Assembly (NCBI RefSeq): GCF_001761485.1
Contig: NC_090775.1
Coordinates: 372,001-436,000, forward strand
Direction of reading: 5' to 3'
Source of the DNA: Yarrowia lipolytica
Taxonomy: Eukaryota > Ascomycota > Dipodascomycetes > Dipodascales
DNA length: 64,000 nt
Made by a program: the position numbers and the translations under genes. Shown piece after piece: positions 13,510 through 46,568 of the stretch. Below the pieces are notes generated by a model that was given only the letters and a program-made list of their open reading frames with translations, did no database searches and was not told the DNA's origin. Numbering within the stretch: the first letter of the stretch is position 1; every line of letters begins with the position of its first letter.

Positions 13510-14963
13510 ATGGTGAGTATAGCGCGGTTTCTGCGCTTGGAGGGCAATGGATGGTGGCCAAACGGTTGCCACGACACGCCGATTGTCACAAAATCCGGTT
13601 TTGATCCAATTCTCGCAAGGTGGCGAATGACCACTACAATCAGTACTAACCCCAGGGTAACCGACCATCACTCCCCGGAGACAAGAAGAAGGACGACAAG
13701 AAGAACGAGAAGCCCAAGTATGAGCCTCCCGTGAACACACGATCGCATCGAAAGAAGAAGAAGGGCCCCGAAAACGCCAACAAACTGCCCGGCGTGTACC
13801 CCACGACACGATGCAAGCTCAAGCTGCTCAAGATGGAGCGAATCAAGGATCATCTGCTGCTGGAGGAAGAGTTTGTGCAGAATCAGGAGCGTCTCAACCC
13901 GCTGGACGACAAGGTTGCCGAGGAGCGATCAAAGGTTGACACTCTGAGAGGTTCTCCCATGGGCGTGGGCACTCTGGAGGAGATCATCGACGACGATCAT
14001 GCCATTGTCTCGTCCACTTCTGGCCCCGAGTACTACGTTTCGATCATGTCTTTTGTTGATAAGGATCTTCTAGAACCCGGCTGTTCTGTTTTGCTGCACC
14101 ACAAGACTGTGTCTGTCGTTGGAGTGCTGCAAGACGATGCCGACCCCATGGTCTCGGTAATGAAGTTGGACAAGGCCCCCACAGAGTCGTATGCCGATAT
14201 TGGAGGTCTGGAGTCGCAGATTCAGGAAATTAAGGAGTCCGTGGAGCTGCCACTCACACATCCAGAGCTCTATGAAGAGATGGGTATCAAACCCCCCAAG
14301 GGAGTCATTCTTTACGGCGCTCCCGGAACCGGAAAGACACTGCTGGCCAAGGCCGTCGCCAACCAGACTTCTGCTACATTTTTGCGAATCGTTGGATCCG
14401 AGCTGATCCAAAAGTACTTGGGAGACGGTCCCCGACTGTGTCGACAGATTTTCCAGATTGCCGCAGAACACGCACCGTCCATTGTTTTCATCGATGAGAT
14501 TGACGCTATTGGAACCAAACGATACGAGTCGACGTCTGGCGGAGAGCGAGAGGTGCAGCGGACCATGCTGGAGCTTCTGAACCAGCTGGATGGATTCGAC
14601 GACCGAGGAGACGTCAAGGTAATTATGGCTACAAACAAGATTGAGTCGCTGGACCCTGCACTGATTCGACCTGGTCGAATCGACCGAAAGATTCTGTTTG
14701 AGAATCCCGACTCCACCACCAAGCGAAAGATTATGGGCATCCACACCTCCAAGATGAACCTCAACGACGATGTTGATCTCGAGGAGTTTGTGTCTTCCAA
14801 GGATGAACTTTCTGGAGCCGACATCAAGGCCATGTGCACCGAGGCAGGTCTGCTTGCTCTGCGAGAGAGACGAATGCGGGTCACTGCTGAGGATTTCCGA
14901 ACCGCTAAAGAGCGGGTCATGAAGAACAAGGTGGAGGAGAACCTTGAGGGTCTCTACCTGTAA
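13510..14963 (+). CDS. RPT2: 26S proteasome regulatory ATPase Rpt2 (first exon is only ATG)
   Basis: Exon 1 is just the ATG (13510-13512). A 143-base intron (GTGAGT to TACTAACCCCAG) leads to exon 2 at 13656-14963, giving 436 residues beginning [17 protein letters not shown]. The Gly2 created by splicing fits the N-myristoylation signal known for Rpt2. The AAA module has Walker A GAPGTGKT at 222-229, Walker B FIDEID at about 279-284, and the arginine-finger region (RPGRIDRK). The C-terminus LYL is the HbYX motif that docks in the 20S alpha ring and opens its gate. Rpt2 is one of six ATPases that unfold substrates in the base of the 19S particle. Length and architecture match Saccharomyces Rpt2 (437 residues). 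Confidence 0.97.
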
Positions 14964-15314: not shown

Positions 15315-16319
15315 TTATTGATCCTGATCCTGGAGGAACTTGTAGATAACAGACATGTCCTTGCCCTGGTAGTTGTCTCCCTTCTCAATGTTTTGATAGA
15401 CCTCGTAAGTCTTGTCAGCCACAAGCATGGAGGATCCAGACTGCTTGGCCACATCGATGGCCAGACCCAGGTCCTTTCGCATCAGGTTGATACCAAAGCC
15501 TCCAACGTAGTCTCGAGAAGAAGGAGTAGCGGGGTTGACACCTGGGACGGGGTTGTTCACCTCGGAGGACCAAGATCGACCGGAAGAGGAGTTGACAATG
15601 TCTGAGAAGAGCTTGAGGTCGCATCCAAGCTTCTCAGCAAGATGGAAAGCCTCAGCAGTGGCAACGTTAGTCACAGCCAACAGGTAGTTGTTGGCAAGCT
15701 TGGCAGCCAGACCCTGGCCCTGGGTGCCGCAGTTGACGATTCGGCCACCCATGAGCTTGAGCAGCTCCTCCACCTGCTTGTACACCTGCTGCTTGTCCTT
15801 GTTGCACCCGACCATGAAGGTGAGGGTGCCCTTCTCGGCTCCCACGACACCTCCGGAGACGGGGGCGTCCACAAAGGCAGCAGAGGCGTCCTTGTCGGTC
15901 ACAAGCTTACCGCACTCAATTGACGTCTGAGTGTCAATGGTGGAGCAGTCGACAAAGATCTTGGAGGTCTTGTCTCCGAGGTTGTTGACCAGGTCGGTGT
16001 AGACTCCTCGGACATGGACGGGCTCAGGGAGCATTGTGAAGATGACATCGGACTTGCTGGCCACGTCCACGGCAGAGCCCAGCACCTCCAGCTGGGCGCC
16101 CTTGGGATCCTTGTCCTTGGCAATCTGTTCTAGAGCAGCCTTGTTCATGTCGAACACGTTGACCTTGGAGTCAGCGTCGACACCGGGCAGCTTCTTCTGC
16201 AAATTGAGGGCCATGGGCAGACCCATTCGACCCAGACCAATGAAGCCGTAGGACAGGTCCCGGGAGGCCCGCAGCGGTCGCAGGGCCTTGACGGAGCTTC
16301 TGAGAGTGGATGAGAGCAT
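15315..16319 (-). CDS. 3-hydroxyisobutyrate dehydrogenase, mitochondrial
   Basis: A 334-residue beta-hydroxyacid dehydrogenase that oxidises 3-hydroxyisobutyrate to methylmalonate semialdehyde with NAD+ in valine breakdown. The N-terminus is Arg/Ser/Leu-rich (MLSSTLRSSVKALRPLRASR), as expected for mitochondrial import. The dinucleotide-binding motif GFIGLGRMG follows at 25-33. The substrate-binding signature DAPVSGGVVGAEKGTL and the catalytic-lysine segment GLAAKLANNYLL are intact. The C-terminal domain (GGFGINLMRKDLGLAID) is complete. The methylmalonate semialdehyde product goes on to propionyl-CoA, which links this gene with the 2-methylcitrate dehydratase 5.4 kb away. Confidence 0.95.
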   Translation of the reverse strand: MLSSTLRSSVKALRPLRASRDLSYGFIGLGRMGLPMALNLQKKLPGVDADSKVNVFDMNKAALEQIAKDKDPKGAQLEVLGSAVDVASKSDVIFTMLPEPVHVRGVYTDLVNNLGDKTSKIFVDCSTIDTQTSIECGKLVTDKDASAAFVDAPVSGGVVGAEKGTLTFMVGCNKDKQQVYKQVEELLKLMGGRIVNCGTQGQGLAAKLANNYLLAVTNVATAEAFHLAEKLGCDLKLFSDIVNSSSGRSWSSEVNNPVPGVNPATPSSRDYVGGFGINLMRKDLGLAIDVAKQSGSSMLVADKTYEVYQNIEKGDNYQGKDMSVIYKFLQDQDQ

Positions 16320-17498: not shown

Positions 17499-18860
17499 TT
17501 ACTTCTTGGCGGCCTGCTTCTGAGAAGTGGAGTTCTTGGGGAGCTCAGCGGTGTAGGGGATGAACTCGGGCTCGCCAGGAATGAACCGTCGCAGAACCTC
17601 GGGGACTCGCAGACCATCGTCGGTCTGGTAGTTCTCCAGAATGCAGCACAGGGCTCGCTCGGTGGCGCAAAGAGTGGAGTTGAGGCAGTGGACGTACTTC
17701 TTCTCTCGCTCGTTCTGCTTCTTGATGCCGCATCGGATCTCAAGGTTTCGGGACTGGTAATCGGTACAGTTGGAGCAAGAAACAAGCTCCTTGTACTCCT
17801 GCTGGAAGGGGAACCAAGCCTCGAGATCATACTTCTTGGCGGCGGCGTTGTTCAGCTCGCCGGAGACAATGGACACAACTCGGTAGGGAAGACCCAGAGA
17901 CTTGTAGAACTCCTCGGAGGCATCAATCATTCGGTCAAACTCCTCCCACGACTTTTCGGGGTCGGTGATGCAGAACTGCTCAATCTTCTCAAACTGGTGG
18001 ACTCGGAAGATTCCCCAGGCGTCCTTGCCGTGAGAGCCAGCCTCACGTCGGAAACAGGTGGAGTAGCCAGCGTATCGTCGGGGTAGCTGCTCCTCGGGTC
18101 GCTCGAACCACTCATTGGCGTGGTAGGCAGAAATGGGCTGCTCGGAGGTGGCAATCAGGTACTTTTCGTCCTGGCCATCCATGACCTTGTACAGCTCCTC
18201 GTCGAACTGCGACAGCTGGGCGGTTCGGGCCATGACGTCCTTGTTCATCATCATGGGAGCCTGCAGAGGCACGTAGCCTCGCTTAGTAAGGAAGTCCAGA
18301 CCGTAGTTGATCAGAGCCTGGTTGAGGAAGACTCCGTAAGACTTGAGGAAGTAGCCTCGGTGGCCGACAATCTTGGTTCCTCGCTCGGGATCGTAACCAT
18401 CGAGTCGGGTAAGAACCTCGTGGTGAGAAAGCTTGCCCTTGACAGCGGGGTCGAAGCCGTCGTTGGCAAAGGTTCGAATGATGGCATTGTTGTCCTCGTT
18501 ATCGGAAACAACAACAGACTCATGGACAAGGTTACCAACGGTGTTGACCTTGGCCCGGAGGGCAGAATCCTGCTCCTGCTCCTGCTTAGTGAGCTCGGCT
18601 TTCTTGGCGACGACATTGTCCTTCTCCTTGAGCAGCTCGCTGGCGTCCTCCTTAGCCTTGAACTTGAGACCGATGGCCTTCTGGATCTTGTTCTGCTCCT
18701 TGTTGAGCTCGTCCAGGTCGAATCGGGTCTTGGTCCAGGCCTTGTAGTCGGCGATGATCTCGTCGACAATCTCGACGGGGTCGCCTCGCGCCTTCTGCGA
18801 CACTCGGATGGCCTCGGGGTTGCCGCCCTTCTCCTCAAGGAACTGGATGATGTCGAGCAT
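17499..18860 (-). CDS. SES1: Seryl-tRNA synthetase, cytosolic
   Basis: A 453-residue class II synthetase that charges tRNA-Ser. The N-terminal 110 or so residues form the long antiparallel coiled coil that grips the tRNA-Ser variable arm (NKEQNKIQKAIG, KEDASELLKEKDNV). The catalytic domain carries TSEQPISAYHANEWF, motif 2 (FRREAGSHGKDAWGIFRVHQFEK) and motif 3 (NSTLCATERALCCILENYQ with the following GLRVPEVLRRF). The tail ends with the lysine-rich residues common to eukaryotic cytosolic enzymes (SQKQAAKK). Codon use is highly biased. It is divergently arranged with the small Atg31-like gene. Confidence 0.97.
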   Translation of the reverse strand: MLDIIQFLEEKGGNPEAIRVSQKARGDPVEIVDEIIADYKAWTKTRFDLDELNKEQNKIQKAIGLKFKAKEDASELLKEKDNVVAKKAELTKQEQEQDSALRAKVNTVGNLVHESVVVSDNEDNNAIIRTFANDGFDPAVKGKLSHHEVLTRLDGYDPERGTKIVGHRGYFLKSYGVFLNQALINYGLDFLTKRGYVPLQAPMMMNKDVMARTAQLSQFDEELYKVMDGQDEKYLIATSEQPISAYHANEWFERPEEQLPRRYAGYSTCFRREAGSHGKDAWGIFRVHQFEKIEQFCITDPEKSWEEFDRMIDASEEFYKSLGLPYRVVSIVSGELNNAAAKKYDLEAWFPFQQEYKELVSCSNCTDYQSRNLEIRCGIKKQNEREKKYVHCLNSTLCATERALCCILENYQTDDGLRVPEVLRRFIPGEPEFIPYTAELPKNSTSQKQAAKK

Positions 18861-19076
18861 TTTTCAAAAGATGTGTGTTTAACGTGACGTGGAGTGTCAA
18901 GCTTTCAAAAAGGGTGTACCAACTGAACTTACATATTTTCACTTTGACTTTTTTCAGCTGGGAGTTGTTCCAGAGTGAGAGTGTGAGTGAGTGTGCCCAT
19001 GCACCTCCTTCATGCAAGTGGTTTTGATGGAGATGAACTTACAGTGATACTTGTACACCACAAATACCACACTACA

Positions 19077-19580
19077 ATGGGCACACCCAGTCAATTATCG
19101 CAGCCCTACTTTGTAGTGGCTAACGACAAGTCCACACATACGGTAAGAGACACAAATACCGGCAACCCCGAATCGGAACACTTTCCAAACGTCAAGTATA
19201 TCTTTGCAGACGACGAGCCCATAGACGACGCAGGACCAGCCGTATACGTGGACTTTGACGAGACAGGCACGCGGGTGACCAAGTTCCACTCGGAGATTCC
19301 TGACTGGCAAGTGACCGATGTGAAAGTTGACTCGCTGGGGGACGTGATCGACGACAAGAACAGCGAATTGAGTAAAGCCATGCGCCTGACTATCCAGGGT
19401 ATCCAGTCGAAACCTGTATATCTGGACATGGACGGGGGTCCTTCTGCGGCAGAACTGGATACCATGGATCTCAGAACGCTTAAAGACTTCTTCAAGTCCA
19501 GAAATGATCTGCTCCATCAGATTGTTAGCAAGATGCCTATCAGAGAGGGGGATTTCAAAGTGGAGGACTCCCAAGAGTGA
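19077..19580 (+). CDS. Small acidic protein resembling autophagy factor Atg31
   Basis: A 167-residue acidic protein. The frame opens at a GTG at 18987 with an ATG at 18999, but residues before the ATG at 19077 (CACACTACAATGG) look non-coding in character. The segment HFPNVKYIFADDE at about 36-48 resembles, from memory, the FPxxIKYIFEDN block of Saccharomyces Atg31. It is followed by a beta-rich stretch (AVYVDFDETGTRVTKF), comparable to Atg31's IIVQLDESG region. The C-terminus (DLRTLKDFFKSRNDLLHQIVSKM) resembles the Atg31 terminal helix that contacts Atg17. Atg31 is a subunit of the Atg17-Atg31-Atg29 scaffold that starts autophagosome formation. The match rests on short motifs and size, so this is a proposal; otherwise the protein is of unknown function. 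Confidence 0.5.
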   Translation: MGTPSQLSQPYFVVANDKSTHTVRDTNTGNPESEHFPNVKYIFADDEPIDDAGPAVYVDFDETGTRVTKFHSEIPDWQVTDVKVDSLGDVIDDKNSELSKAMRLTIQGIQSKPVYLDMDGGPSAAELDTMDLRTLKDFFKSRNDLLHQIVSKMPIREGDFKVEDSQE

Positions 19581-19892: not shown

Positions 19893-22889
19893 CTACTGCT
19901 TTCTATACTTCCTCGGAGGCACCAACCTGGGAATGCTTTTCTGCCTCTGACCTTGCGGCGGCTCGGTTGGGCCCAGTTGCAACGACGCAGTCTTCTGAGC
20001 CAGACCCTTCTCTGGCAGCTCGTTCTCCTTGTCGTCCAACTGGCCATACGATCGTTTTCTTCGAGGAGATTCGTTGACAGATGCAGGCACAATAATAGCA
20101 GGAACTGAGGTTGATCTGGTGGCTTTGACTGGTGGTGGCTGTGTGTATTGCATAAGAGGTAATGCTGTTGGCTGATCAGACGATAACGTCTCAGGAACAC
20201 TCTCTCCACACGTCGTCAACATCTCTCTCACGCAAGTCTCCAGCTCATTATCAGACTGCTGAATAGACCGCTTGAAGGGGTCCACCACATGCAAAACACC
20301 ATCAATGTCCTTAGCTTGAGAACTAGGAGTGACAAGAGTAGCCAACAGACCGTTCAGACTAGCTTGAGTCGAAGTCTGCAAGTTGGCCAGGGCATCTGGA
20401 ACAGCACTCTGGGCATGATCGGTTTCGAGTCGGGCCTTGGCCACGGCCTCAGACAGAGCACTCAGCTGGCCAACAAGAGCCTGCTGTCGCTCTTCAAGAG
20501 CCATCTTGGCCTCCGCTGTCAACTCAGACGCACTGTGAGAGAGCCCACTGCTATCGGAAGCAGTCTTGGCAGCAGCACAAGAAGCCAAAAGAGACCGTCG
20601 AGCAGAGCCCATAGTATCTTTAAAGGCATTGTAGTTGGAACTGACGGTGCATCGGCTATCGTACAATGCGGAGCCCACAGCAGCTGCCTGTTTCTTCTCC
20701 AGTTGCACCTTTTGGTCAAGCAATCCAAACAGCTCTGATGAAGAGTGGTCCTGAGTTTGTCCCCAGGATATGATCAATCTGGAAACATCATTGACCAGTT
20801 CCTGACGCGACTGCTTCTCATGGTGTTGATGGGCCTTGAGTTTTTCAGAGAGTTTTTGGTTCTCAGATGCCAGAAGTCGAACCAGAGAAGCCAGCTCGGA
20901 CTCGGCAATAGACTGCTTGTCGTCAAACGCCGTGACCTGTCGATCAACTCCTCCATTGAGCTCCTTGAACGCGTCTTCCAAATACATGGAGATCTTGCCC
21001 GTGCTGTCACTCACTTGCTTTGAGAAGCCCCTCATTTCGTTTTGCAGACCCACCATACCCTTCTCCCAACTCTTTGCGGCCTCCTCCAGGCCAGCAGCAA
21101 CCCTGCCTGCAAGCTCCTCTTTGACCTTCTCGATTCCAGCCACAATTTCACCTGTCGTCGTCGCACTCTGGTTCTGAGTAACGAGAACACTCTTAAACTG
21201 GTCGCCCAAGTTGGCCAACGAGTGCTTTATCGACGAAGAAACACTCTCCAGACTGCTCACCTGGATCTTGGAAGAAGACGCGAGCTTCTCCATCAGCGCG
21301 TTCTCAAACTGCTGCTGGGAAGACCGCATGGAAGAGACATGTCCATATGTCTGATTGGCCATAAGCGCCATACTGCTCTTGAGGGTCTCATGGGCACTCT
21401 GGGCCTGTTTGGTTTTGGACTTTTCGCTGTCCAGCTCCCGTTTAGCCTCGAGATAACACACCTGCGACTTTTCCGCGTCGTCACGCGTGCGTTTCATCTG
21501 GCCGTCAAAAACATCCAGCTTTCGCTGCTGTTCGGCTGTCTGAGTGCGTAACGAAGCTAATTCAGCCTCCATGGCCCGGTAGTTTGCCTCTGCTATCTGG
21601 AATCCATTGTTCTTCTGAGCAGCCAGCAGATCCGAGCGCAGCTTTTCGTTGAGCACCGTGAACTCCTTGAGTAAGATGCGCTTTTGAATGTGGTTCATCT
21701 GGGGCTTGTTTTTGATGTTTTTGGCTCTAGAAGCGTACTCCAGAGTGTTGACAGTCTCCTCAAGATTCACACGCGCGGGAGAAACGGTCGCAATAATGTA
21801 TGTGCGCGTCCCTCCTCCAAGAGAGTCGTAAAGAAGACGAGTGAGGTTAGAATCTCGATAAGGAACATGCTGGGCTTTGTCAACAAGAGCGTTGATGACT
21901 CTTCCAAGGGTCAACAGGCTCTTGTTGATCTTTCCAGCCTCCACGGCCTGTTTGTTGACTGCCCCTGAGTTTTTGATACTTTCCGAACCTGCAAGGTCCA
22001 CGAGATTGATTTTAGCAGTTCGAGCAACCTCCATAGATCCCGGCACCATGATACTCAGAGTGAGTGTGAAAACCATATGTGACCGACTGGAATGATCGTT
22101 CATTTGCGTGGCAGCAACGTGTCTTCGTCTGAGACCTTCTCTGAGAACGTGGAGACCCTGTGCACTGGAATTGAGATACACCTCGTCCAAACCATCCACC
22201 TTGACTCCATCACGTTCCACAAATAGCTTCACCGTCTTGGGTTTCTCCGTGGTATCGTTCAAGTCTCTGATATCTTCATTGTAGAGCTCCAGAAAGGTGC
22301 ATTTGACGGCGTAGTCCAGCCCCTCAATCTCCAGACGTCTGAATAATGAATGAATAACACGGGGAATGATTCCGGCCTCATGCGACAATCCGCCCACGTC
22401 ACTCTGGCCCTCCACATCTCCCACCATGGTGTATGTTTTGCCTGTTCCTGTCTGACCGTAGGCGAATATCGTACAGTTGATACCGTCCATCACATGTTGC
22501 AGCACCGGGGCCACCACTCCATCATACACCATGTTCTGGTCCGACTCGGGGCCATAAACCTGGTCCACTGTGAACGTCTTTTGGCGCTGGTTATCGTTCA
22601 CAGTGACTGTAGCATCCGCTTCACACGCGTCCACCACCACCTCCGAGTTCTGGTTCTTTTCCCGCTCGTTTCGCGTCCGACTTCGAACCACCACTTTGAT
22701 GTTCTCGCCCGAAATTGATTTCTGTAGCTGGCTCGACGCTGTAGCTGATGTGGACGTTGTTATCGCATCTGGAGCAGGCGACTCTGTAGCGGTCCTCTGA
22801 CGCCGTAATGAAGCTGTACTTGTAGCTTGATGTTTAGCCGCTCCGTGGGAACGAGACCTCATTCCCAAACTGTTGTGGCGCGAAGACAT
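19893..22889 (-). CDS. Kinesin-5 (BimC/Cin8/Kip1/Eg5 family) mitotic motor
   Basis: A 998-residue N-terminal motor kinesin. It has a Ser/Thr-rich head extension (1-60) and then a motor domain at about 62-415. The motor contains P-loop GQTGTGKT at 145-152, switch I NDHSSRSH, switch II DLAGSE and the neck sequence YASRAKNIKNKPQMN that is typical of kinesin-5. Coiled coil follows (about 420-530), then a long stalk. The tail holds SPRRKR, a CDK consensus site (S-P-R-R-K), within an ESPRRKRSYGQLDDKENE segment that loosely resembles the BimC box. Kinesin-5 tetramers cross-link and slide antiparallel spindle microtubules. Saccharomyces has two such motors, CIN8 and KIP1, and this could correspond to either. 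Confidence 0.95.
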   Translation of the reverse strand: MSSRHNSLGMRSRSHGAAKHQATSTASLRRQRTATESPAPDAITTSTSATASSQLQKSISGENIKVVVRSRTRNEREKNQNSEVVVDACEADATVTVNDNQRQKTFTVDQVYGPESDQNMVYDGVVAPVLQHVMDGINCTIFAYGQTGTGKTYTMVGDVEGQSDVGGLSHEAGIIPRVIHSLFRRLEIEGLDYAVKCTFLELYNEDIRDLNDTTEKPKTVKLFVERDGVKVDGLDEVYLNSSAQGLHVLREGLRRRHVAATQMNDHSSRSHMVFTLTLSIMVPGSMEVARTAKINLVDLAGSESIKNSGAVNKQAVEAGKINKSLLTLGRVINALVDKAQHVPYRDSNLTRLLYDSLGGGTRTYIIATVSPARVNLEETVNTLEYASRAKNIKNKPQMNHIQKRILLKEFTVLNEKLRSDLLAAQKNNGFQIAEANYRAMEAELASLRTQTAEQQRKLDVFDGQMKRTRDDAEKSQVCYLEAKRELDSEKSKTKQAQSAHETLKSSMALMANQTYGHVSSMRSSQQQFENALMEKLASSSKIQVSSLESVSSSIKHSLANLGDQFKSVLVTQNQSATTTGEIVAGIEKVKEELAGRVAAGLEEAAKSWEKGMVGLQNEMRGFSKQVSDSTGKISMYLEDAFKELNGGVDRQVTAFDDKQSIAESELASLVRLLASENQKLSEKLKAHQHHEKQSRQELVNDVSRLIISWGQTQDHSSSELFGLLDQKVQLEKKQAAAVGSALYDSRCTVSSNYNAFKDTMGSARRSLLASCAAAKTASDSSGLSHSASELTAEAKMALEERQQALVGQLSALSEAVAKARLETDHAQSAVPDALANLQTSTQASLNGLLATLVTPSSQAKDIDGVLHVVDPFKRSIQQSDNELETCVREMLTTCGESVPETLSSDQPTALPLMQYTQPPPVKATRSTSVPAIIVPASVNESPRRKRSYGQLDDKENELPEKGLAQKTASLQLGPTEPPQGQRQKSIPRLVPPRKYRKQ

Positions 22890-24062: not shown

Positions 24063-25256
24063 TTACATCATATCCGTCACGTTCACCGGCATCTCATCGA
24101 TCTGAGTACTATAATACTGCTCGATATCTCTCAGAGTGGTGATATCATCGTTAGTAGCAAAGTTGATCGCCACACCCTTTCGGCCAAATCGACCGGATCG
24201 ACCGATTCGATGGATGTAATTCTCTCGGTTGGGAGGCAGGTCATAATTGATGACCAGCGACACCTGCTGAACATCGATACCTCGGGCCCAAACGTCAGTG
24301 GAGATGAGTACCCGGCTCCTGCCGCTTCGGAACTCGTTCATGATCGAGTCTCGGTCCTTCTGAGCCATATCTCCGTGCATCGAACACACGGTGAAGTTGT
24401 TGTCTTTCATCTGCTGTGTCAGCCAGTCCACCTTCTTTTTCGTGTTGCAGAAGATGACGGCCTGAGTAATAGTCAGTGTGTCGTACAGGTCGCACAGCGT
24501 GTCAAACTTCCACTCTTCTTGCTCAACAGCAATAAAGTACTGCTTGAGTCCCTCCAGCGTCAGCTCGTCTCGCTTAACCAGAATTCGGACCGGATCAGTC
24601 ATGAACTTGGAGGTCATCTCGAGAACAGAGTGAGGCAAAGTAGCACTGACAACCACTACCTGAGTGGCTGCAGGCAGGTATCTGTAAATGTCGTAGATCT
24701 GCTCCTGAAAGCCCTTGTTTAGTAGCTCGTCGGCCTCATCGAGAATCAACATCTTGAGGTTCTTGGTTCGAAGACAGCCCTTCTTGATCATATCCAGACA
24801 CCGTCCGGGGGTTCCAGAAACCACCTGCTGACCAGCCTCCAGCTTCTTCATGTCCACCGACAACGACGTTCCACCAATGCAAGCATGGCACTGGACATTC
24901 ATGTAGTCGCCCAGAGCCAGAATGACGCTCTGGATCTGGGTGGCCAGTTCTCGTGTCGGAGAAAGAACCATGGCCTGTGTTTCCCGATGCTTGGTGTCAA
25001 TCACCTCCAACATCGAAATAGAGAAAGTGGCTGTCTTTCCCGTTCCGGACTGTGCCTGTGCAATGGTATCTCGACCCTTGATGATCTGTGTGATGGCTCG
25101 AGACTGGATGGCAGAGGGAGCCTCGAAGCCGTACGCGTAGATTCCCCGCAGAAGGTCGTCCTTGAGATCCATCGACTCGAAGGTGGGCGTCACGTCCACG
25201 TCCTTGGACGTCTTGAACTCCAGCTCGTCATCGAGATCTCTATCAAACTCGGCCAT
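24063..25256 (-). CDS. FAL1: DEAD-box RNA helicase Fal1 (eIF4A-III type)
   Basis: A 397-residue DEAD-box helicase, close to the 399 residues of Saccharomyces Fal1. All motifs are present: Q motif (SAIQSRAI), motif I AQSGTGKT at 68-75, Ia PTRELA, II DEAD at 173-176, III SAT at 204-206, and [10 protein letters not shown] near 350. The N-terminal [20 protein letters not shown] and ending [19 protein letters not shown] fit the eIF4A-III/Fal1 branch rather than eIF4A. Fal1 acts in nucleolar 18S rRNA maturation. In other eukaryotes the orthologue is the exon-junction-complex core, and in this intron-containing yeast either role is possible. The start was set at MAEFDRD, since 53 upstream codons are not conserved. 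It shares a 139-base divergent promoter with the next gene. Confidence 0.92.
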
Positions 25257-25395
25257 AGTAGTTAGTGTGCGTGTTGCAGTTGTAACCTGAATCCTTCTTC
25301 CCTGCAGTGGTACATTTTTTTCTTCATAAACTTCGTGCATATCAAATCTGCACTGTGGAAGCACCTTATCTGAACTTTTGATACTCACAACGACA

Positions 25396-26533
25396 ATGAA
25401 CCACCAGGACCTCAACCAGCTCAGAAGTCTTGTCGTGCTTGTTGGCGGCGGTCTTTGTGCCGGAAAGGTGAGTATTACGGGTCTAAAAGGGGGAAATGGA
25501 TTGTGAAAAGTAGCAAATCAGGATTTGAGATGCACGTTGTCGTCGGTGGTCTTGCAAACAGGCCATCGAGGAAATGATAAAGACAAGTCGTTGTTGCTGA
25601 TCTGTATCACTCAGTTGTTGACTGTGATCTCCATTGCGGCAGTCACGTCTTCAGCTCATATACATCTAGCCTATAAGCCGATGTGGATGCTTGTCTCGAA
25701 GACTACCGGTCCAGCTCAATCCGGCCCAGCTGTGTGCCGATTGTTTACAACTTGTCGTCTGAGTGACTTTAAAGCTGCTGCCTCAACTCATGTCATACGG
25801 CCATTCACTACCGTTACTAATCTAGAAAGAGGTATGCAAAGCCGTCGAAGAACGCATCGGCGAGCTAGGCAAGCTCCGAAAACCAAAGGTGCACACCATC
25901 CACATGAACGACTACATATACCCCGGCCACGATCCCAAATACAACGATCATCCTCGTCGATTTGACATTGCTCGTCTGAAGAAGGATGTTGATGAGCTTA
26001 GTGTGCTCAACATTGAGGCTGGTGCCCTGGAGTTCTCAAAGACAGCCACCTACAACGAGTCACGACACAATCTCAGCAACTATGTCGACACATACCACCC
26101 CAACTGGCCCCATGTGGTGCTGATCGAGGGCTACTACGCTCTGTACGACGAGGATCTGCGCAGGCTGAGCAGCATGATGATTTTTGTCGATAGTGACGCT
26201 GACATTCGTCTGTGCCGGCTCGTGGAGAAGAAGGCTGATCCTTCTGGTTCCAATTTGGCCGAGGTGCTGGATGACTACTTTACTCACTCGCGAGTCGAGA
26301 TGTCCAACTTCATCCTGAGCACCAAGGAACACGCTGATGTGGTGCTCCCTAGAGGAGCCGAGCCCATGGGCGTCAAACTTGTCAGTGTGGGACTGTTCAA
26401 TCGGCTGAACCAGGAGGTGATGAGCATTATTGAGGGCGAGCCTGTGGAAAAACAAGAACGTTTGAGGATCCAGAGTAAGTGGGATTTGAGAGAAGAGCAT
26501 TTGGATCAGACGCGGTATGTGGATCTCACGTAA
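25396..26533 (+). CDS. Uridine-kinase-like P-loop protein (DAS2-like), two exons
   Basis: Exons 25396-25467 and 25826-26533 join in phase to a 259-residue protein. The intron is 358 bases (GTGAGT to TTACTAATCTAG). Exon 1 supplies the nucleotide-binding loop [13 protein letters not shown], and exon 2 continues [10 protein letters not shown]. Downstream [19 protein letters not shown] and [18 protein letters not shown] match the uridine kinase/phosphoribulokinase fold, including the lid region (CRLVEKKAD). The P-loop reads GLCAGKK, with Lys where Ser or Thr usually binds magnesium, so activity is uncertain. The closest Saccharomyces protein I can suggest is Das2, a putative uridine kinase. Without exon 1 the protein would lack its ATP-binding loop, which supports the intron. 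Confidence 0.75.
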
Positions 26534-28072: not shown

Positions 28073-28175
28073 GTTGTGCCTTTAATATATCGTCTCACAA
28101 TGCACAGTAATGCACGATACATCTCAAACTGAAACACAACATCATCACCATCAAGAGTCACGACGAGTCTCCAAA

Positions 28176-29012
28176 ATGGTCAAAAAACTCTCGTTCAAAG
28201 GCGACAAGAAGACAAAGAAGCCCAAGGCAAGCTCGTCCAAGGGCAGCGACAAAAAACGACCCAGAATCGACCCAGTTGAAGACGATCAGGCAGCGGGATG
28301 GATCTCGGCCAAATCGTCAGAAGAATTCCATGGACCCACTTTGTTGGTGACTACCAGTGAAGGCAAGCCATGCTGTTTTGTGTATGAAAATAGCGGCGAC
28401 GCAGAAGACAAAACCCACTCTCCTACAATGGCAGTATCATTCGACCTCGATACAGTTGACAAGAGTCTCGACACAGCTGAACCGACATCTACACAGCAAG
28501 TTCTCCTTCTCTCGCCGTTGGAATTCGACACAAATAAACGGACAATTGATATCGACGAGACGGTGGCGAGGTTTGCTCTCAAAGTTCCGTCTCTGGGCGT
28601 CTTTCTGGGCGTGGATAAGGCTGGAGTAGTCTCGCTGGACAGTGTTGCCATCGGTACTCCGCAGCAGTTTACTTTCAAAAGAGAAAAAGGCGACGCGGGG
28701 GTTTCGTGGACGATAAAAACGTCCTATGATGCTTATATTGAGATCAAGAACGGTAAGATCAACCTTACTGAAGATGGAGCAAAAGCATCAAAGTTCACAG
28801 TAAGACTTCAATCGTCTCACAGAAAGAAGACCACGGCCGAAAAACAGGCGGTGACATACTATGCCATGAGTACAAAGGCCCTGGAGGAGCGTGCTGGAAG
28901 ATCTCTTGATCCTGATGAGGTTGTCAAGTTGAAGAAGTCTAACAAGGAGGGTAATCTGAACGAGGCCTTGTTGGACCTGAGACAGAAAGGCAAGAGTGAT
29001 ACGTATTGCTAG
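28176..29012 (+). CDS. FRG1-like protein (beta-trefoil RNA/actin-associated)
   Basis: A 278-residue protein. It begins with a lysine-rich nuclear/nucleolar-type region (MVKKLSFKGDKKTKKPKA) and continues into an FRG1 domain. Family features include GWISAKSSEEFHGPTLL near residue 39, the actin-like trefoil repeats VPSLGVFLGVDKAGVVS and SYDAYIEIKNGKI, and the terminal LLDLRQKGKSDTYC, a characteristic FRG1 ending (RxKxKxDxxC). FRG1 proteins are nucleolar and spliceosome-associated, and the human gene was studied in facioscapulohumeral dystrophy. An in-frame ATG lies upstream at 28110, but the conserved FRG1 N-terminus starts at MVKK, so 28176 is preferred. Saccharomyces lacks an obvious counterpart. 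Confidence 0.88.
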   Translation: MVKKLSFKGDKKTKKPKASSSKGSDKKRPRIDPVEDDQAAGWISAKSSEEFHGPTLLVTTSEGKPCCFVYENSGDAEDKTHSPTMAVSFDLDTVDKSLDTAEPTSTQQVLLLSPLEFDTNKRTIDIDETVARFALKVPSLGVFLGVDKAGVVSLDSVAIGTPQQFTFKREKGDAGVSWTIKTSYDAYIEIKNGKINLTEDGAKASKFTVRLQSSHRKKTTAEKQAVTYYAMSTKALEERAGRSLDPDEVVKLKKSNKEGNLNEALLDLRQKGKSDTYC

Positions 29013-36290: not shown

Positions 36291-37511
36291 ATGCTTCGAG
36301 TTGCACACTTTTCCCGAGCTGCTGTTTCTGCGCGAGCAGCCATTCCCACCACACGAGTCGCCTTGCAGCGAGTTGCTCGATACTCCGTGGACGCTAACCT
36401 CAAGAAGACCCCCCTTTTCCCTCTCCATGAGAAGCTGGACGCCCAGTTTGTCGACTACGCCGGCTTTGCCATGCCCGTGCTTTACAAGGGTACTACACAC
36501 ATCCAGTCGCATAATTGGGTGCGGGAGAAGGCCGGTCTGTTCGACGTGTCGCATATGCTGCAGCACCGGTTCTCTGGCCCCGCTGCTACCGAGTTCCTGG
36601 AGAAGATCACCCCCGCAGACCTCCAAGCGCTGCAGCCCTTCACCTCGACTCTGTCTGTGCTCCTCACCCCCGAGGGAGGCATTGTCGACGATCTGATCAT
36701 CTCCAAGCACGGTGAGAACGACTTCTACGTGGTGACCAACGCCGGCTGCAGAGATAAGGATCTAGCCTTCCTGGCCAAGGAGAGCGAGCCGTTTGGCGAC
36801 AAGCTGGTCCACGACACAATTGGTGGCGGCCTGATCGCTCTACAGGGTCCCGAGGCTGCCGCTGCGCTCCAGAAGTTCACCAACTATGATCTGTCCCAGA
36901 TCAAGTTTGGCCAGTCCGCCTGGGTCGACTTTGGAGGCAACAAGTACCACGTGGCCCGAGGAGGATACACTGGTGAGGACGGCTTCGAGGTGTCCATCCC
37001 TGACGATGCAGCCTCTGTTGCCTTTGCCGAGGCTCTCCTTGAGAACGACAACGTCATTGCTGTCGGCCTGGCTGCCCGAGACTCTCTGCGACTCGAGGCC
37101 GGAATGTGTCTCTATGGCCACGAGCTGAGCGAGGAGCTGACTCCTGTCGAGGCTGGCCTCACCTGGGTTGTTGGCAAGGCCCGACGATCTGGTGACCGAA
37201 CTGGATTCAACGGCTCTGACAAGATTCTGGCCCAGATCAAGGACAAGTCCGCCACGAAGGCCCGAGTGGGTCTGTTCAACGACGGCCCTGCTCCCCGAGA
37301 GGGCGTTGCCATTCTCAACGAGGCGGGCGAGAAGGTCGGAGTCGTCACTTCCGGCTGCAAGTCTCCTTCTCTCAACAAGAACATCGGTATGGGCTACGTC
37401 AACAAGCCATTCAACAAGAGCGGCACCAAGCTGACTCTTGATATCCGAAACAAGAAGCGACCCGCCGAGGTGGTCAAGATGCCCTTTGTTCCCCACAAGT
37501 ACTTCAAGTAG
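36291..37511 (+). CDS. GCV1: Glycine cleavage system T protein (aminomethyltransferase)
   Basis: A 406-residue mitochondrial T protein. It transfers the methylene group from the H protein's lipoyl-bound intermediate to tetrahydrofolate and releases ammonia. The N-terminal 35 residues are an Arg/Ala-rich targeting sequence. The folate-binding GcvT domain carries the family blocks QFVDYAGFAMPVLYKGT, REKAGLFDVSHMLQ, VARGGYTGEDGFEVSIP and ARDSLRLEAGMCLYGHEL, the last being highly diagnostic. The C-terminal barrel ends VKMPFVPHKYFK, a conserved ending. The TATA-like GTATATC at about 36229 precedes a CACA-rich leader. Confidence 0.97.
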   Translation: MLRVAHFSRAAVSARAAIPTTRVALQRVARYSVDANLKKTPLFPLHEKLDAQFVDYAGFAMPVLYKGTTHIQSHNWVREKAGLFDVSHMLQHRFSGPAATEFLEKITPADLQALQPFTSTLSVLLTPEGGIVDDLIISKHGENDFYVVTNAGCRDKDLAFLAKESEPFGDKLVHDTIGGGLIALQGPEAAAALQKFTNYDLSQIKFGQSAWVDFGGNKYHVARGGYTGEDGFEVSIPDDAASVAFAEALLENDNVIAVGLAARDSLRLEAGMCLYGHELSEELTPVEAGLTWVVGKARRSGDRTGFNGSDKILAQIKDKSATKARVGLFNDGPAPREGVAILNEAGEKVGVVTSGCKSPSLNKNIGMGYVNKPFNKSGTKLTLDIRNKKRPAEVVKMPFVPHKYFK

Positions 37512-37993
37512 ACGCAGAGAGGACAAGCAAGGGAAGAACTAAATTATACGTATTAATACATCATTGCAGAAGGAATCACGAATGTCAAGTAGACTGAATA
37601 GGTGTCTGACTGTGTAATGTAAGATTCGAATTGATTGTCATTGACTCGTATGTACTATGCCTTCTGTTGATAGGACCTCTATCAAGCGTAGTTGTAGGGT
37701 ATGTACTGTGGCTCTATATACAATATTTGTAAATTGAACTGTCCTGAAATAATCCATCTTAGCGAGTCACAGAGAAACAATGCAATGGACTCAGAAACAA
37801 TGCAACGGACTCAATTGAGCGCTCTTATATCTACAAGTAGCAAAGTCCTTCTCTACTATTACAATAGATGCCGACAAGACTGTGTTCCTTCTATGGCAAA
37901 CAATCAACTAACTGTCTGTACACCCAGATATCTTCGTTTTCTATATTACATGCTATTTACAATGTTAGTTTGTTCAGTCAAAACAATACTCGT
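37512..37993. other. Intergenic between convergent genes
   Basis: The 482 AT-rich bases between GCV1 and the OPA3-like gene contain a direct repeat around 37780-37815 (two copies of GAAACAATGCAA followed by GGACTCA). Nothing else was recognised. Confidence 0.6.
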
Positions 37994-38659
37994 TCAGTTC
38001 TCCTTAGCTGACACAGCATTCTTGGGAACAGGTGACTCGGGGTGAATCACCTTGCTCTCATGACCAGGCTTGTTATGGTTCTCCACAAGTTTCTGAATAT
38101 TATCCATAGTTGACAGTTTTGGAACGGTAGGGGATGGAGTGGCCTCACCTGCGGTCTCAGCCACCTCCCTCACCCGCTTGGACACCTTGTTTGTATCTTT
38201 GTCCACTACCAGATGCTGAGGATTGAGACCCTCGGGGGCCTTATAATCATCTTCCAGCAGCTTTCGCTTGACGAGTTTCTCCTTGAGCCACTCAATCTCG
38301 TCCTGAAGAGTCTCGATATCGTCAGCCACCGTCTCTCGTCGATTCAACTCTTTCCTTCGAGCCCGGAATGATTCGTACAGAATAAGACCTCCCGCCACGG
38401 AGAAAATAAACCCCTCAGCCACAAACGTAGCACCCGATTCAATGGCCTTGGCCTCATTGAGCGGCCGCACCTTGAAGGTCGACTTGCCCATCAGACGCAT
38501 CTTCAGATTGGTGTCTGTCTGATGGAGTCGCTGGGCCAGCGAGATGCAGATTTGCTTGAATCGAGGGTGCTGTTTGGCCTGTCCCTTGATGGCCGTCGCC
38601 ATGGGTTTGGCTATGGTTCTGACCAGCAGGGACGTGAGCTTGAGCGCGATTCCACTCAT
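37994..38659 (-). CDS. OPA3-like mitochondrial protein
   Basis: A 221-residue member of the OPA3 family, small mitochondrial proteins of uncertain function whose human member is mutated in optic atrophy and 3-methylglutaconic aciduria. The block KQHPRFKQICISLAQRLHQ is characteristic. A hydrophobic segment at about 78-96 (FVAEGFIFSVAGGLILYES) is followed by a coiled coil with RRKELNRRET and LQDEIEWLKEKL at about 100-135, as in other OPA3 proteins. The C-terminal 80 residues are polar and not conserved. It is divergent to ATP3, another mitochondrial gene. Confidence 0.92.
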   Translation of the reverse strand: MSGIALKLTSLLVRTIAKPMATAIKGQAKQHPRFKQICISLAQRLHQTDTNLKMRLMGKSTFKVRPLNEAKAIESGATFVAEGFIFSVAGGLILYESFRARRKELNRRETVADDIETLQDEIEWLKEKLVKRKLLEDDYKAPEGLNPQHLVVDKDTNKVSKRVREVAETAGEATPSPTVPKLSTMDNIQKLVENHNKPGHESKVIHPESPVPKNAVSAKEN

Positions 38660-39025
38660 GTTAGATGTGTCGAAAGTGTGAGATGAATGCCTGTCTCGAA
38701 CTCAGCTCCGAAACTCAGTGGCGACATATCCATCATGGTGGTGCGGCTCATAAATTAATTCAGGTGGGATTCGAACATGGGCGTGTTGGGAAGATAGGGT
38801 TAGGGGAGCAACCAGGAAGCTCCCCGTTTCTCCCGGGACTTAAGGTTCCGGCGACAACGAAAATTGCTCCGGCGCAGATTCCAGCACCGCGTAAACTGTA
38901 TACTTCCCAGCAGGTGCGCTGATTGGCCCAAATACTGACAACACCTTGAATTTTCCCACACCGTAAACTCCTCCCTTTGGAAGTGTCGCATCACCGCTAA
39001 ACGACAACCACAATCAACTGGCAAG
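38660..39025. promoter_or_regulatory. Divergent promoter of OPA3-like gene and ATP3
   Basis: A 366-base promoter region lies between two mitochondrial genes. A GGATTCGAAC string at 38768 resembles a tRNA B box in reverse, but no tRNA fold surrounds it. No other feature is supported. Confidence 0.5.
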
Positions 39026-40526
39026 ATGTTTGCTCTTCGAACTGCTGCTCGACCCGCTGCCCGAAGCGTGGGCGCTACCCGGTGAGTAGGAAAAAATAAT
39101 GGTGCTGATTGCGTTGGATAATGAAACGGGTGCCTGGACCCCACGACATTGGACATGATACCCTCGGGCTCAGAAAGAAAGACAATTGGACGACTCAATC
39201 GACAAGGAGACTGCGGCGGGCGATTGCGGACACGTTAAAGTGGAGTTGTCTTCCATGACCGCGATTAATTGCGCCTAGTTGACCGCTCATAACACGCTCG
39301 GGTGGTGTGACGTGGACATCCGAGAAATAGCCGTTATGAGGGCAATGGATGGTTTTGTATGGGTTGTGTGTGGTTGTGGGTGCTATGCGGAGCGGCAATG
39401 GCTGTGGCAATGGTGTTGGCCGTTTGTTTGGTGCGATTGGGGTAATATTCGTTGACTTTGTGTTACCTCTAAGGTATCACGTTTCCAGCCAATGCCCTTA
39501 TGCATACACCACACAACGCAACATAGTATGGCACAGCACACGAAACGCAACACCACACTACAATACACGACTCACTGCATTCCAGCACTAAATACAGTCC
39601 AGCATCTAATTCCGAACAGCACAGCACAGCACAGCACAGCTCAATTATATTCCGCCACCGACCTATGGCCAGTCGCTTCTGTGATCTAAAACTAACCCAG
39701 AAACTATGCCACTCTTCGAGAGATCGAGATGCGACTCAAGTCCATTAAGAACATTGAGAAGATTACCAACACCATGAAGATTGTTGCCTCCACCAAGCTC
39801 GGTAAGGCCCAGCGAGCCATGGCCACCTCCAAGGTCTACAACGAGGCCTCCGAGAAGGTTTTCGAGAACTCCGAGACCGCTGTGCCTGAGAACATCGAGA
39901 AGCGATTGTGGGTTGTTGTCTCCTCCGATAAGGGTCTGTGTGGTTCCATCCACTCCCAGCTTGCCCGAACCGTTCGACGAAAGCTGCTCGACTTTGAGTC
40001 CGGCGAGAAGCTCATTGACATTGTTGCTGTCGGTGAGAAGATCAAGGCCCAGCTCGGCCGATCTAACCCCGAGCAGATGCGTCTGTCTTTCGGTGGAACC
40101 GGTAAGGAGGCCCCCACCTTCGAGGAGGCTGCCCACATTGCTGACGAGATTCTTGCTCTCGACACCCAGTACGACGACATTGAGATTGTCTACAACAAGG
40201 TCCTGTCCGGTATCTCTTTTGAGCCCATCATGAAGGAGTCCTACTCCGCCAAGGCCATTGAGGACGCCCCCAAGTTCGGCCAGTACGAGCTCGAGGACGA
40301 CGTTGTCAAGAACCTTGCCGACTTCTCTCTGGCCAACACCATCTACGCCGCCATGGCCGAGGGCCACGCTGCTGAGATCTCTGCTCGACGAAACGCTATG
40401 GACAACGCTTCCAAGAACGCTTCCGATATGATCAACAAGTACTCCATTCTGTACAACCGAACTCGACAGGCTGTCATTACCAACGAGCTGGTCGACATTA
40501 TTACCGGTGCCTCTTCTCTTGAGTAA
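39026..40526 (+). CDS. ATP3: F1 ATP synthase gamma subunit, two exons
   Basis: Exon 1 (39026-39081) encodes MFALRTAARPAARSVGAT, a mitochondrial presequence. A 619-base intron (GTGAGT to CTAACCCAG) is followed by exon 2 at 39701-40526. The total is 293 residues. The junction codon is Arg, followed by NYATLREIEMRLKSIKNIEKITNTMKIV across the mature N-terminus. The blocks STKLGKAQRAM, SSDKGLCGSIHSQ and the C-terminal ARRNAMDNASKNASDMI and YNRTRQAVITNELVDIITGA are universal gamma-subunit features. The gamma subunit is the rotating shaft of the complex V catalytic head. The intron carries an AGCAC pentamer repeat near its 3' end. Without exon 1 the protein would lack its targeting sequence. Confidence 0.96.
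39616..39639. repeat. (ACAGC)n pentamer repeat inside the ATP3 intron
   Basis: About five tandem ACAGC units lie 61 bases before the intron's 3' splice site. It is a short microsatellite. Confidence 0.85.
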
Positions 40527-41046
40527 GCCTCTATATAAAACTCTAATGAGCATGACTAGATGATTATCACATTTACAGGTACGTAGACAAGAGATATTTA
40601 AATGACGAGTACACCACGAGAGCAGTGTATGAGTTTCTGGAAAGAGGTGAGCTGTGTTGTGGGGTAATCGTGTTCATACAGTAACTGTGTTTATGTATGC
40701 ACTGTACCTTTACTTTATACTATTACAGTATCTCGTAATATCATACTATTGCCGGTGATGATGTATATAAGTAGAAGTACAGTATCGCCGGTTTTATTCA
40801 CCGTCTGAACCGTCTTTTTGTCTTCTTCACATGGCGTAATTATTTGTCTTGTCGTGGCCCTGTAATTATGTACAGTGATTAGCTACTTGCACCGTATTCA
40901 TTGTTCATTGTATTGTACGCCTCCTCACTTTAGCTCTATATATATATCACGTCTGAAACAGACTGTATCAGTTTGCATATAAGCATCAACACGCTTTTTT
41001 CTACACTAACCAGACTTCTCCCGAGATACTACAATACGAGTACGCC
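40527..41046. promoter_or_regulatory. Intergenic region and promoter of the hydrolase-like gene
   Basis: The 520 bases include a TATATATATA box near 40939-40948, about 100 bases before the next ATG. A CTAACCAG string at 41007-41014 looks like a 3' splice site, but no GTGAGT partner lies between it and the TATA box. Confidence 0.5.
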
Positions 41047-42228
41047 ATGACGGATGACAAAATGGAAGACATTCATCTTGGAGATGACAGTGACGATGAG
41101 AACACGGAGGCTGTGACTTCGGCCGATACGGGGGAAACGAAGAAGGTGGATGCTGACGCCTCAAAGACAGTTGGTACTGAAGAAACTACTGAGGAAACAC
41201 ACGAACCCGAGACTGCGAAGAACCCAGAGCCCAAAGACGAATGTGCCAGTGGCAAAGACTCTGACGACAAGGCCGCCAAAGACAAAAAACCGGAGACTCC
41301 AGACTCTTCCTCTGAGGCTCCCCAACTACACAAGACTTCTACGTCTATCCCCCCAAAAGGTGCCACTTCCACGGTTAACGATATCACATTCTACACCGTT
41401 GGAGAGGCAAAAAACTGTGACACGCTCATTGTCGTGCTCACAAACTACCTGGGTTTCCAGTCCAACAACAACCTGTTGTGTGCCGACTCCATTCATGAAA
41501 CCACCGGCCTGCCTGTCGTACTGATTGACTCCACCGGCAACAACCCGGCCATGCATGTCATGAGACTCAAGGGCGACGAGGAATTGCCCCACCTGCCTCC
41601 TCCTCAGACCAAGCCCAAGTCACAGTCGGGGCCGTCGTTCTTGGGCAAGTTCAAGAGTTGGTTTGCCGGATCAGTCTCGGGATTTTTTGACGACATGTGG
41701 CTGGCCGCACACTCGTACGAAAAGACAATTGGCATTGTGCAATCTTCCATCGAACAAGTGTACCAGGTATACACCCCTGGACAAATCATTGTGGTTGGCT
41801 ATGGCTTTGGAGCCCGGTACGTGCTTCCGCTGTTGAAGAGAAGTTCACTTTTCAACCCTCATGAAGAGGACGACGAAGACTCCAGCCCCTGGGAAGTCAG
41901 AGATAAGGCCAACGCGGAAGACCACATTTTGTCCGGAGTGGCCGTCAACCCATCATTGACCACCCTGGACGATTTCAAGCACGTCCATAAGCCTCTCCTG
42001 TTCATCTATAGTGACGACAACGAGATGCTTCCTCGAACGACCGTTGAGCAAGGTTTCCGACTCATCCCCGGAAAAGATGCCGAGCGGAAGGCCATTTCTC
42101 AGAATCCTCCTTTGCCCCATGGGTTTGCCATTCCTGGCGATTACTCTGAGGACGTGGTTGGAAACAACCCCCAGGAGGTGTTTGAGATGATTGACAAGTG
42201 GGTCAAGGCGCAGCTCACTAAGGAGTAA
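41047..42228 (+). CDS. Dienelactone-hydrolase-like alpha/beta-hydrolase, probable pseudoenzyme
   Basis: A 393-residue protein. Residues 1-110 are an acidic, Thr/Glu/Asp/Lys-rich disordered region. The rest resembles the dienelactone hydrolase group: ITFYTVGEAKNCDTLIVVLTNYLGF, IGIVQSSIEQVYQVY and the elbow IIVVGYGFGARYV. The nucleophile position (normally Cys or Ser in GxCxG) is Gly253 in GYGFG. Candidate acid (Asp323 in FIYSDDNEMLP) and base (His358 in PPLPHGFAIPGD) residues remain. Loss of the nucleophile suggests a binding or regulatory role rather than hydrolysis. No transmembrane segment or signal peptide is seen. The fold assignment rests on these blocks. Confidence 0.7.
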   Translation: MTDDKMEDIHLGDDSDDENTEAVTSADTGETKKVDADASKTVGTEETTEETHEPETAKNPEPKDECASGKDSDDKAAKDKKPETPDSSSEAPQLHKTSTSIPPKGATSTVNDITFYTVGEAKNCDTLIVVLTNYLGFQSNNNLLCADSIHETTGLPVVLIDSTGNNPAMHVMRLKGDEELPHLPPPQTKPKSQSGPSFLGKFKSWFAGSVSGFFDDMWLAAHSYEKTIGIVQSSIEQVYQVYTPGQIIVVGYGFGARYVLPLLKRSSLFNPHEEDDEDSSPWEVRDKANAEDHILSGVAVNPSLTTLDDFKHVHKPLLFIYSDDNEMLPRTTVEQGFRLIPGKDAERKAISQNPPLPHGFAIPGDYSEDVVGNNPQEVFEMIDKWVKAQLTKE

Positions 42229-42489
42229 CTACGATAGCCGTGTAATCAACAATGTATATTATATTCAATGTGACATCACATCATCTTCTATTATTTCACA
42301 GTACGTAGACAGCTCTACATGACCATGTCGCTTTAGAGACTCACATTGCGCCGAAAGTATCTGCCAGTTCATAATGAGAACTTGACAGGTTATACTGTAA
42401 CAGTCGTCAGAGTAGACCACGCTAATCCGTTCAGCTTAGCTTATGAATCAGGATTCTTGGGCTTCTTGGGCTTCGCCTTACTAACAACT

Positions 42490-43719: not shown

Positions 43720-44345
43720 TGAAGTGGTAGTGTTGCTGTGAGTGTTTTTTTTAAAGATGGAGGTTTAGATATCCCTCGGTAAGAGAGGCTATATATTATT
43801 TAGCTTATTGACGCAGGTGATTGTGCATGGGTAAGGGTAGGAGCGGGACAGTCTTTGAAAGCTGCAATTGTGGTTGATATAGCGCCACAAAAAGCGTCAG
43901 GATGAACGAGAAGGGGTTGATATATGTACTGAGCTGCTTTATTCTTTATTTCCCCGATCTATGATATTCTTTGACCGACCCAATGTCGTTTCAATTACAG
44001 TATCATTGTCTATGTAGAGGGTACAACGTTGTCATGTGGACAAAGGGACATGTGAAGAGAGTATGAGGCCAGTCAAATGTGGGGCCAAGGAGAGGAAATG
44101 TGAAAAAAAGGACAAAATGGATACTACGAGGGGAAGATTTTACGTAGAATACACTCTTCAGATTTCTTTCAAATTCTCTATAACGTCCCGGATCTGGGGT
44201 TGCTATTTCCTGTGGCCAATGTAAACATGATTTGCATTGTGATATCGCATGCTCAACATACTCAACAGATGACATCACCGTGAAACCTGTACTTGTACTT
44301 GGACTAGCAGAAAGGGCAATGAAGAGGAGGGGGTCATATGGGGGA

Positions 44346-44353
44346 TATAAATA
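44346..44353 (+). promoter_or_regulatory. Orphan TATA box
   Basis: TATAAATA in a good rightward orientation with no recognisable gene within 2 kb downstream. It may drive an unannotated transcript. Confidence 0.35.
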
Positions 44354-44847
44354 GTCAGATATGAGCTCTGTGAGCTTTTTTAGATGTCTATTTTCCGTCT
44401 TTCACCAATATTGGCATTTGTTTCACGTCAGTCCTCAGTTCTACGATTATTGTAGTATGAACTGTTTGCACTGCTGAAGTCTCAAGCACACAGCACACCC
44501 CTCCCCCACCTTGCATCCCTTTGAAAGACCTTATGGGTCATTGGCACGTGATGAAGGAGGTATAGTAAGGAGATTTTTTGTGCGTTACGTTCATGAACTC
44601 GTTCCCATCGCAGTCTTTGAAGGCTTTTTTCCCTTTTCCGTCGAGGTTTTTTATTTTTTATTTTTGGTCACACACAGTACATACGCGTATTTTGTTGAGA
44701 ATTAGTTAGCATAACATGCGTGCTGCTGGGTGTTCCGGTATTCGCTGAATTGTAGGTCAGTGAGACCAATGTATATGATAGAACAGACTCCTGCAGTATT
44801 TACGAGGCTTCTATAGGATATTTCTATCCTAAAATAGAGAAATTCAG

Positions 44848-44856
44848 TATATAAAT
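44848..44856 (+). promoter_or_regulatory. Orphan TATA box
   Basis: TATATAAAT, rightward, 1.7 kb before the MFS start codon and without a gene of its own. Confidence 0.35.
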
Positions 44857-46423: not shown

Positions 46424-46568
46424 CTTCGTAATCAGTTTATGACCCCTCGTCCGAGCAGTCATAAACCATAAAGCAGGTGTAAAAAAAACACGAAAAACTG
46501 TTTCAGGCCGATCTCAAACCCGATTTCTGCGGAAATCGAAACATCTCATTTACCTCTTTAACTCCAAA

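Follow-up and report, generated by a model that had tools for sequence, protein, structure and literature searches.

The window analysed here is a stretch of 64,000 nucleotides from Yarrowia lipolytica. On its plus strand, at 19077..19580, it holds an open reading frame (ORF) that stays open from an ATG at 19077 to a TGA at 19580 and encodes a protein of 167 amino acids. The product is acidic (pI 4.5; 32 Asp plus Glu versus 17 Lys plus Arg) and carries two motifs, HFPNVKYIFADDE at residues 35-47 and DLRTLKDFF at residues 131-139. The ORF is divergent from SES1, the seryl-tRNA synthetase gene (17499..18860, minus strand), with start codons 216 bp apart; SES1 was assigned by Pfam and by its top hit in the PDB, the cytoplasmic seryl-tRNA synthetase 3qne (E 1.4e-236). 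A sequence-only reading of this DNA had described an acidic protein of this length with these two motifs adjoining SES1, and the ORF, its acidity, the two motifs, and the neighbor are all confirmed. An upstream in-frame ATG would add 18999..19076 (plus strand) and give a form of 193 amino acids. This extension is disfavored, and the ATG at 19077 favored, because four of the five homologues described below (P0003-P0006) start near the 19077 ATG; the fifth, P0002, is itself a 193-amino-acid prediction.

The ORF matches its own genome once, at itself (20,500,066 bases in six contigs were searched), and has five homologues in the protein database, 61-99% identical. Two of these have names, from Yarrowia sp. 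C11 and B02, both listed as "hypothetical protein," and the other three are nameless. The alignment of the ORF with its five homologues, referred to here as the six Yarrowia-type sequences (A1), has 81 invariant columns, and the ORF is therefore a conserved protein rather than a chance frame. That it is spurious, for example antisense or non-coding, is a reading to which we give almost no weight. Other open frames do overlap the ORF on the minus strand, but the homologues other than the 99% one share 61-87% identity across 87-98% of the length, and a GC3 of 0.62 resembles that of the neighboring genes (0.57-0.77). Judged from sequence, protein conservation already excludes a spurious ORF.

On the side away from SES1, the ORF is followed by a large kinesin gene (19893..22889, minus strand; PF00225, E 1.9e-103), which we take to be probably of the kinesin-5 type, and by a FAL1-type helicase (24063..25340, minus strand) that scores 698 bits against eIF4A-III chains versus 559 against eIF4A-I; FAL1 is presumably the yeast eIF4A-III type DEAD-box helicase. 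Further along are a uridine-kinase-like, DAS2-like gene (25904..26533, plus strand; PF00485, E 1e-13; UCK2, E 6e-18) and GCV1, encoding the glycine cleavage T protein (36291..37511, plus strand; PF01571, E 6.4e-83), with four genes between them: thioesterase-like, FRG1-like (28110-29012; PF06229, E 1.3e-11), NPR2, and chaperonin. In the uridine-kinase-like gene, taken as 25681-26533, the match to the profile starts at position 88 of 196 and the N-terminal part lies outside the same open frame; the gene probably has an intron or a short 5' exon.

We take YDR020C of Saccharomyces cerevisiae to be DAS2, a putative uridine kinase, although a literature search for this identity found no confirmation. 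The systematic names of S. cerevisiae number genes along the chromosome, with W or C for the strand: SES1 is YDR023W (PMC9691831), CIS1/ATG31 is YDR022C (PMC4099481), FAL1 is YDR021W (PMC3618361), and GCV1 is YDR019C (PMC6250833). With the window read from the other end, SES1, the ORF in the position of ATG31, FAL1, and GCV1 have the same order and relative strands as in S. cerevisiae. The uridine-kinase-like gene also fits both order and strand, in the YDR020C position, if YDR020C is indeed DAS2. The ORF occupies the predicted place of ATG31 and has the predicted direction, with transcription leading from the SES1 side to the FAL1 side; this prediction from gene position is independent of any sequence match. 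There are breaks in the yeast order, namely the kinesin between the ORF and FAL1 and the four extra genes before GCV1. Beyond SES1 are a 3-hydroxyisobutyrate-dehydrogenase-like gene and a proteasomal ATPase gene (15315-16319 and 13833-14963), which we take not to be neighbors of SES1 in yeast, so that the shared order presumably stops at SES1.

Elsewhere in the window, 36291-48608 contains GCV1, ATP synthase gamma, an acyltransferase, and an MFS transporter, the last two of which we take to be CST26-like and QDR3-like, respectively. These genes presumably resemble yeast YDR019C and YBR039W-YBR043C, which we take to be blocks duplicated in the genome duplication. CST26 is given as YBR042C in a published paper. 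A tRNA-Thr (AGT) is found at 56496-56569 on the minus strand.

Atg31 proteins for comparison were gathered with the S. cerevisiae sequence (10 proteins) and with a combined-alignment (A3) search, which returned 29 proteins, many of them nameless: 24 with PF09795 and the five known Yarrowia-type sequences. A near-duplicate (P0007) and two short sequences (P0029 and P0030) were left out, and the remaining 21 of the 24 PF09795 proteins form alignment A4. Compared by hhalign, A1 and A4 give a score of 40.1 (P 5.6e-6, probability 85.5%), which is reached by none of 500 column-shuffled versions of A1 (maximum, 22.0); in forced global mode the score is 31.6 versus a shuffle maximum of 14.7. The stand-alone tool returns P 7.5e-5 against nine Atg31 proteins and, with its own alignment, P 2.6e-5 against the 21, the latter match covering residues 33-152. 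The ORF, entered as a single sequence in its 193-amino-acid form, also ranks first against Atg31 by profile comparison (38.8; next, 24.1) within a sample of the genome consisting of 294 ORFs of 90-400 amino acids, drawn from the window and from 27 further loci, of which 20 are control stretches and 7 come from partner searches. The resemblance to Atg31, which had been proposed in the sequence-only reading, is thus found by profile-profile comparison, mainly via residues 33-65.

This block (19173..19271, plus strand; hhalign) aligns SEHFPNVKYIFADDEP...YVDFDETGT of the ORF with FPTNIKYIFEDN...IVQLDESG of Atg31, and the profile signal lies almost wholly within it (HFPNVKYIFADDE...VDFDETG). The FPTN(I/V)KYIFED block of Atg31 is present in the ORF as HFP-NVKYIFADDE, residues 35-47, after the first strand, and a block of this type is found in all six Yarrowia-type sequences, one of which has NYIFG. 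When residues 33-48 are masked, the Atg31 match vanishes (score 14.7, P 0.15). Taken alone, residues 49-167 score no higher than 39 of 200 shuffles in local mode and 8 of 200 in global mode; for residues 100-167 the counts are 33 of 200 and 14 of 200, respectively. With the main block masked, the best hhalign match, not significant alone, places residues 129-151 on Atg31 146-168, where the C-terminal helix would be expected to align. This putative helix (residues 129-153, TMDLRTLKDFFKSRNDLLHQIVSKM; 19461..19535, plus strand) is aligned with the Atg17-binding C-terminal helix of Atg31 (PMC4506457) in the register that hhalign also finds, and a helix is seen there in both low-confidence AlphaFold2 models described below. 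At the other end of the protein, MAFFT alignments place an N-terminal strand, residues 12-18, FVVANDK (19110..19130, plus strand), on (V)TVYDK of Atg31 with D17 kept, a match that is likewise not significant alone. In an alignment of 27 sequences, P37, F43, and L132 are invariant, and D17, F36, Y41, L135, and N143 are nearly so. The ORF product keeps parts that match Atg31, in the same order; as sequence evidence, a single block is strong, and everything else is colinear but weak.

Other searches did not recover Atg31. A Pfam scan of the ORF gives no match, including none to the PF09795 HMM, and a search of the large protein database with the ORF alone returns no Atg31. Against the PDB, the single ORF sequence finds nothing and the six-sequence profile finds no Atg31, only weak matches to sucrose synthase (E 0.53) and SMARCAD1 (E 1.5). 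The combined A3 search reveals no clear intermediates between the Yarrowia-type proteins and Atg31 of Saccharomycetaceae. Pfam scans of the ORF relatives give nothing besides a HAUS1 match (E 0.0066) in one of the six Yarrowia-type members, which we take as chance. Within the Y. lipolytica genome no other Atg31 was found: the ORF finds only itself, and searches with the family model PF09795 and with the Atg31 relative P0015, both run without a positive control, are empty.

These results bear on the reading in which the ORF is an unrelated, Yarrowia-specific small acidic protein between SES1 and FAL1, with a motif that arose by chance or convergence. It would account for the lack of a Pfam match, for an Atg31 match confined mainly to about 33 residues, and for the ORF's own search yielding Yarrowia-like homologues only. 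However, P 5.6e-6 corresponds to about 0.04 matches this strong in a genome of 6,500 proteins, the match falls on the one gene that has ATG31's place, order, and strand, and the aligned N- and C-terminal parts are colinear; we consider this reading very improbable.

AlphaFold2 models of the ORF product are of low confidence. With Yarrowia-type sequences alone, the model (pLDDT 36.1, pTM 0.21) contains seven strands plus a helix spanning 132-152. A model from 27 sequences including Atg31 (pLDDT 50.0, pTM 0.39) is not independent, having Atg31 relatives mixed into its alignment, and the helix at 132-152 appears in both. In Foldseek searches of 350,542 chains, 5jhf_B ranks first for both models without significance (E 0.22-0.23; probability 0.15-0.20; TM under 0.3; rmsd 16-18 A), and for the first model 5jhf_E ranks second (probability 0.28); 5jhf is listed among entries with Atg31, and chains B and E are taken as Atg31 from their lengths. 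Foldseek also scores residues, so this ranking is not purely structural. VIA-align 2, applied to just the first of the two models, has no Atg31 among its listed matches. As stated in a review, Atg31 cannot keep its fold without Atg29, and a single-chain model may be poor for that reason (PMC4506457).

Genes for the expected partners are also encoded in the genome. Atg17 (L003:1426-2652, minus strand) is a 408-amino-acid protein matching PF04108 with E 4.7e-63; in control searches, this family gives matches below the cut-off in 8 of 14 prokaryote controls and above it in none. A second ATG17-like match above the cut-off, in an open frame of 956 amino acids (E 7.1e-25), is a candidate Atg11 and probably this protein. 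Atg29 (L006:1492-2088, plus strand) is found with PF18388 (E 5.3e-7; 34.2 bits versus a cut-off of 25.7), its product having no match in the PDB, and Atg13 with PF10033 (E 4.0e-82). The ATG13 family also gives a second, weak match that stays under the cut-off (19.8 bits, E 0.004), at G000:C6:3124788-3125105 (minus strand; locus L008), with one TAG in frame.

Atg101 is encoded as well, at G000:C2:914584-915102 (minus strand; locus L002), with PF07855 at E 1.1e-33 and the chain 4yk8 at E 2.4e-8. We take 4yk8 to be S. pombe Mug66, the fission-yeast Atg101; human-type ATG101 chains match the frame with only E 0.012-0.027. No ATG-started ORF of at least 120 amino acids covers the frame, and an intron is therefore likely. 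This gene, on contig C2, is the sole PF07855 match of the genome and is separate from the ORF.

Because the gene is conserved and intact, has profile similarity to Atg31 in one block, lies in the conserved gene order, and is accompanied by its partner genes, we conclude that the ORF is very probably the Y. lipolytica orthologue of Saccharomyces ATG31. The gene order is the deciding evidence: its conservation around SES1 raises the Atg31 claim from suggestive to strong. The identity put forward in the sequence-only reading is accordingly supported, by the profile-profile match together with the conserved order at SES1. That reading had also noted that an Atg31 here would extend the Atg17-Atg31-Atg29 complex to a basal yeast; genes for the probable Atg31 orthologue, Atg17, and Atg29 are all present, while the complex itself we infer.

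In Saccharomyces, Atg31 forms an eight-stranded sandwich to which Atg29 contributes one strand, its C-terminal helix binds the concave face of Atg17, and the scaffold meets Atg13 on starvation, as described in a review (PMC4506457). By analogy, we infer the fold, the binding of Atg17 and Atg29, and the autophagy role of the ORF product. By homology it would be the middle piece of an Atg17-Atg31-Atg29 scaffold, folded as a beta-sandwich to which Atg29 supplies the completing strand and anchored by its C-terminal helix on the concave side of Atg17. In starved cells, Atg13-Atg1 would be recruited to this scaffold and autophagosome formation would begin. The ORF product thereby likely serves in starvation-induced autophagy.

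A sub-case of ATG31 orthology is that the orthologue no longer serves bulk autophagy, the initiation complex being carried by Atg101 and Atg11 as in fission yeast. Both Atg101 and an Atg11 candidate are present in the genome, and, according to a review, S. pombe lacks both Atg29 and Atg31 and depends on Atg11 for its bulk autophagy (PMC8997447). The strong conservation of the ORF within its clade and the retention of Atg29 and Atg17 argue against such a loss, which we regard as unlikely, and an Atg31 active in starvation-induced autophagy is the reading we prefer.

With Atg101 encoded in the genome too, the accessory subunits of the Atg1 complex in this yeast may be of both the yeast and the metazoan type. 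We lean towards a hybrid complex, comprising the full Atg17-Atg29-Atg31 set plus Atg101 and Atg11, that would preserve the ancestral state of budding yeasts. If so, the supposed exchange of Atg29-Atg31 for Atg101 would come down to Atg101 having been lost late in the lineage of Saccharomyces, and Atg31 proteins that have escaped detection would be expected in other ascomycetes that bear Atg29, such as Magnaporthe. A 2015 review considers it likely that Atg101 and the pair Atg29 and Atg31 are conserved in different species, each missing where the other occurs; it describes this as a riddle and expects that solving it would end an impasse (PMC4506457). A 2022 review reports from unpublished data that Magnaporthe has Atg29 and Atg101 and no Atg31, and supposes that Atg101 replaces Atg31 (PMC9643702). 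Against replacement, PMC8997447 notes that Atg101 of S. pombe is unable to substitute for Atg29 and Atg31, and a tractable yeast with Atg17, Atg29, Atg31, and Atg101 would also speak against it. With all four in one organism, the question would become testable by single and double deletions. The co-occurrence of Atg31 and Atg101 runs against the either-or pattern (PMC4506457) and is more interesting than a new family member. In the available parts of the open-licence literature, no earlier description of Atg31 from Yarrowia came up; publication elsewhere is possible.

Among known systems, Atg101 (S. pombe Mug66, 4yk8) is, like Atg31, an accessory subunit of the Atg1 complex that is encoded in this genome. 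It has a HORMA fold that binds Atg13 (PMC4506457). Its gene is distinct from the ORF, and nothing indicates a relationship between the two; the ORF has no Pfam match to the Atg101 HORMA family (PF07855). The known counterpart of the ORF is Atg31 (Cis1) of Saccharomycetaceae, Pfam PF09795, with structures 4p1w, 4hpq, and 5jhf (KLTH0C07942p). Identity of the ORF product is only 18-27% with the 21 aligned members and 29% with the protein of L. thermotolerans. The Thr of FPTN is missing from it, its C-terminus is longer by about 14 residues, and one alignment, but not another, treats its TKFHSEIPDWQVTD stretch as an insertion. In common with Atg31, however, it has a similar size (167 amino acids versus 145-197 in the 21 members), acidity, the FP(T)N(V/I)KYIF block, the VxxDExG strand, a predicted C-terminal helix, and the same place and orientation between FAL1 and SES1. 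The ORF product is a new, very divergent member of the known Atg31 family.
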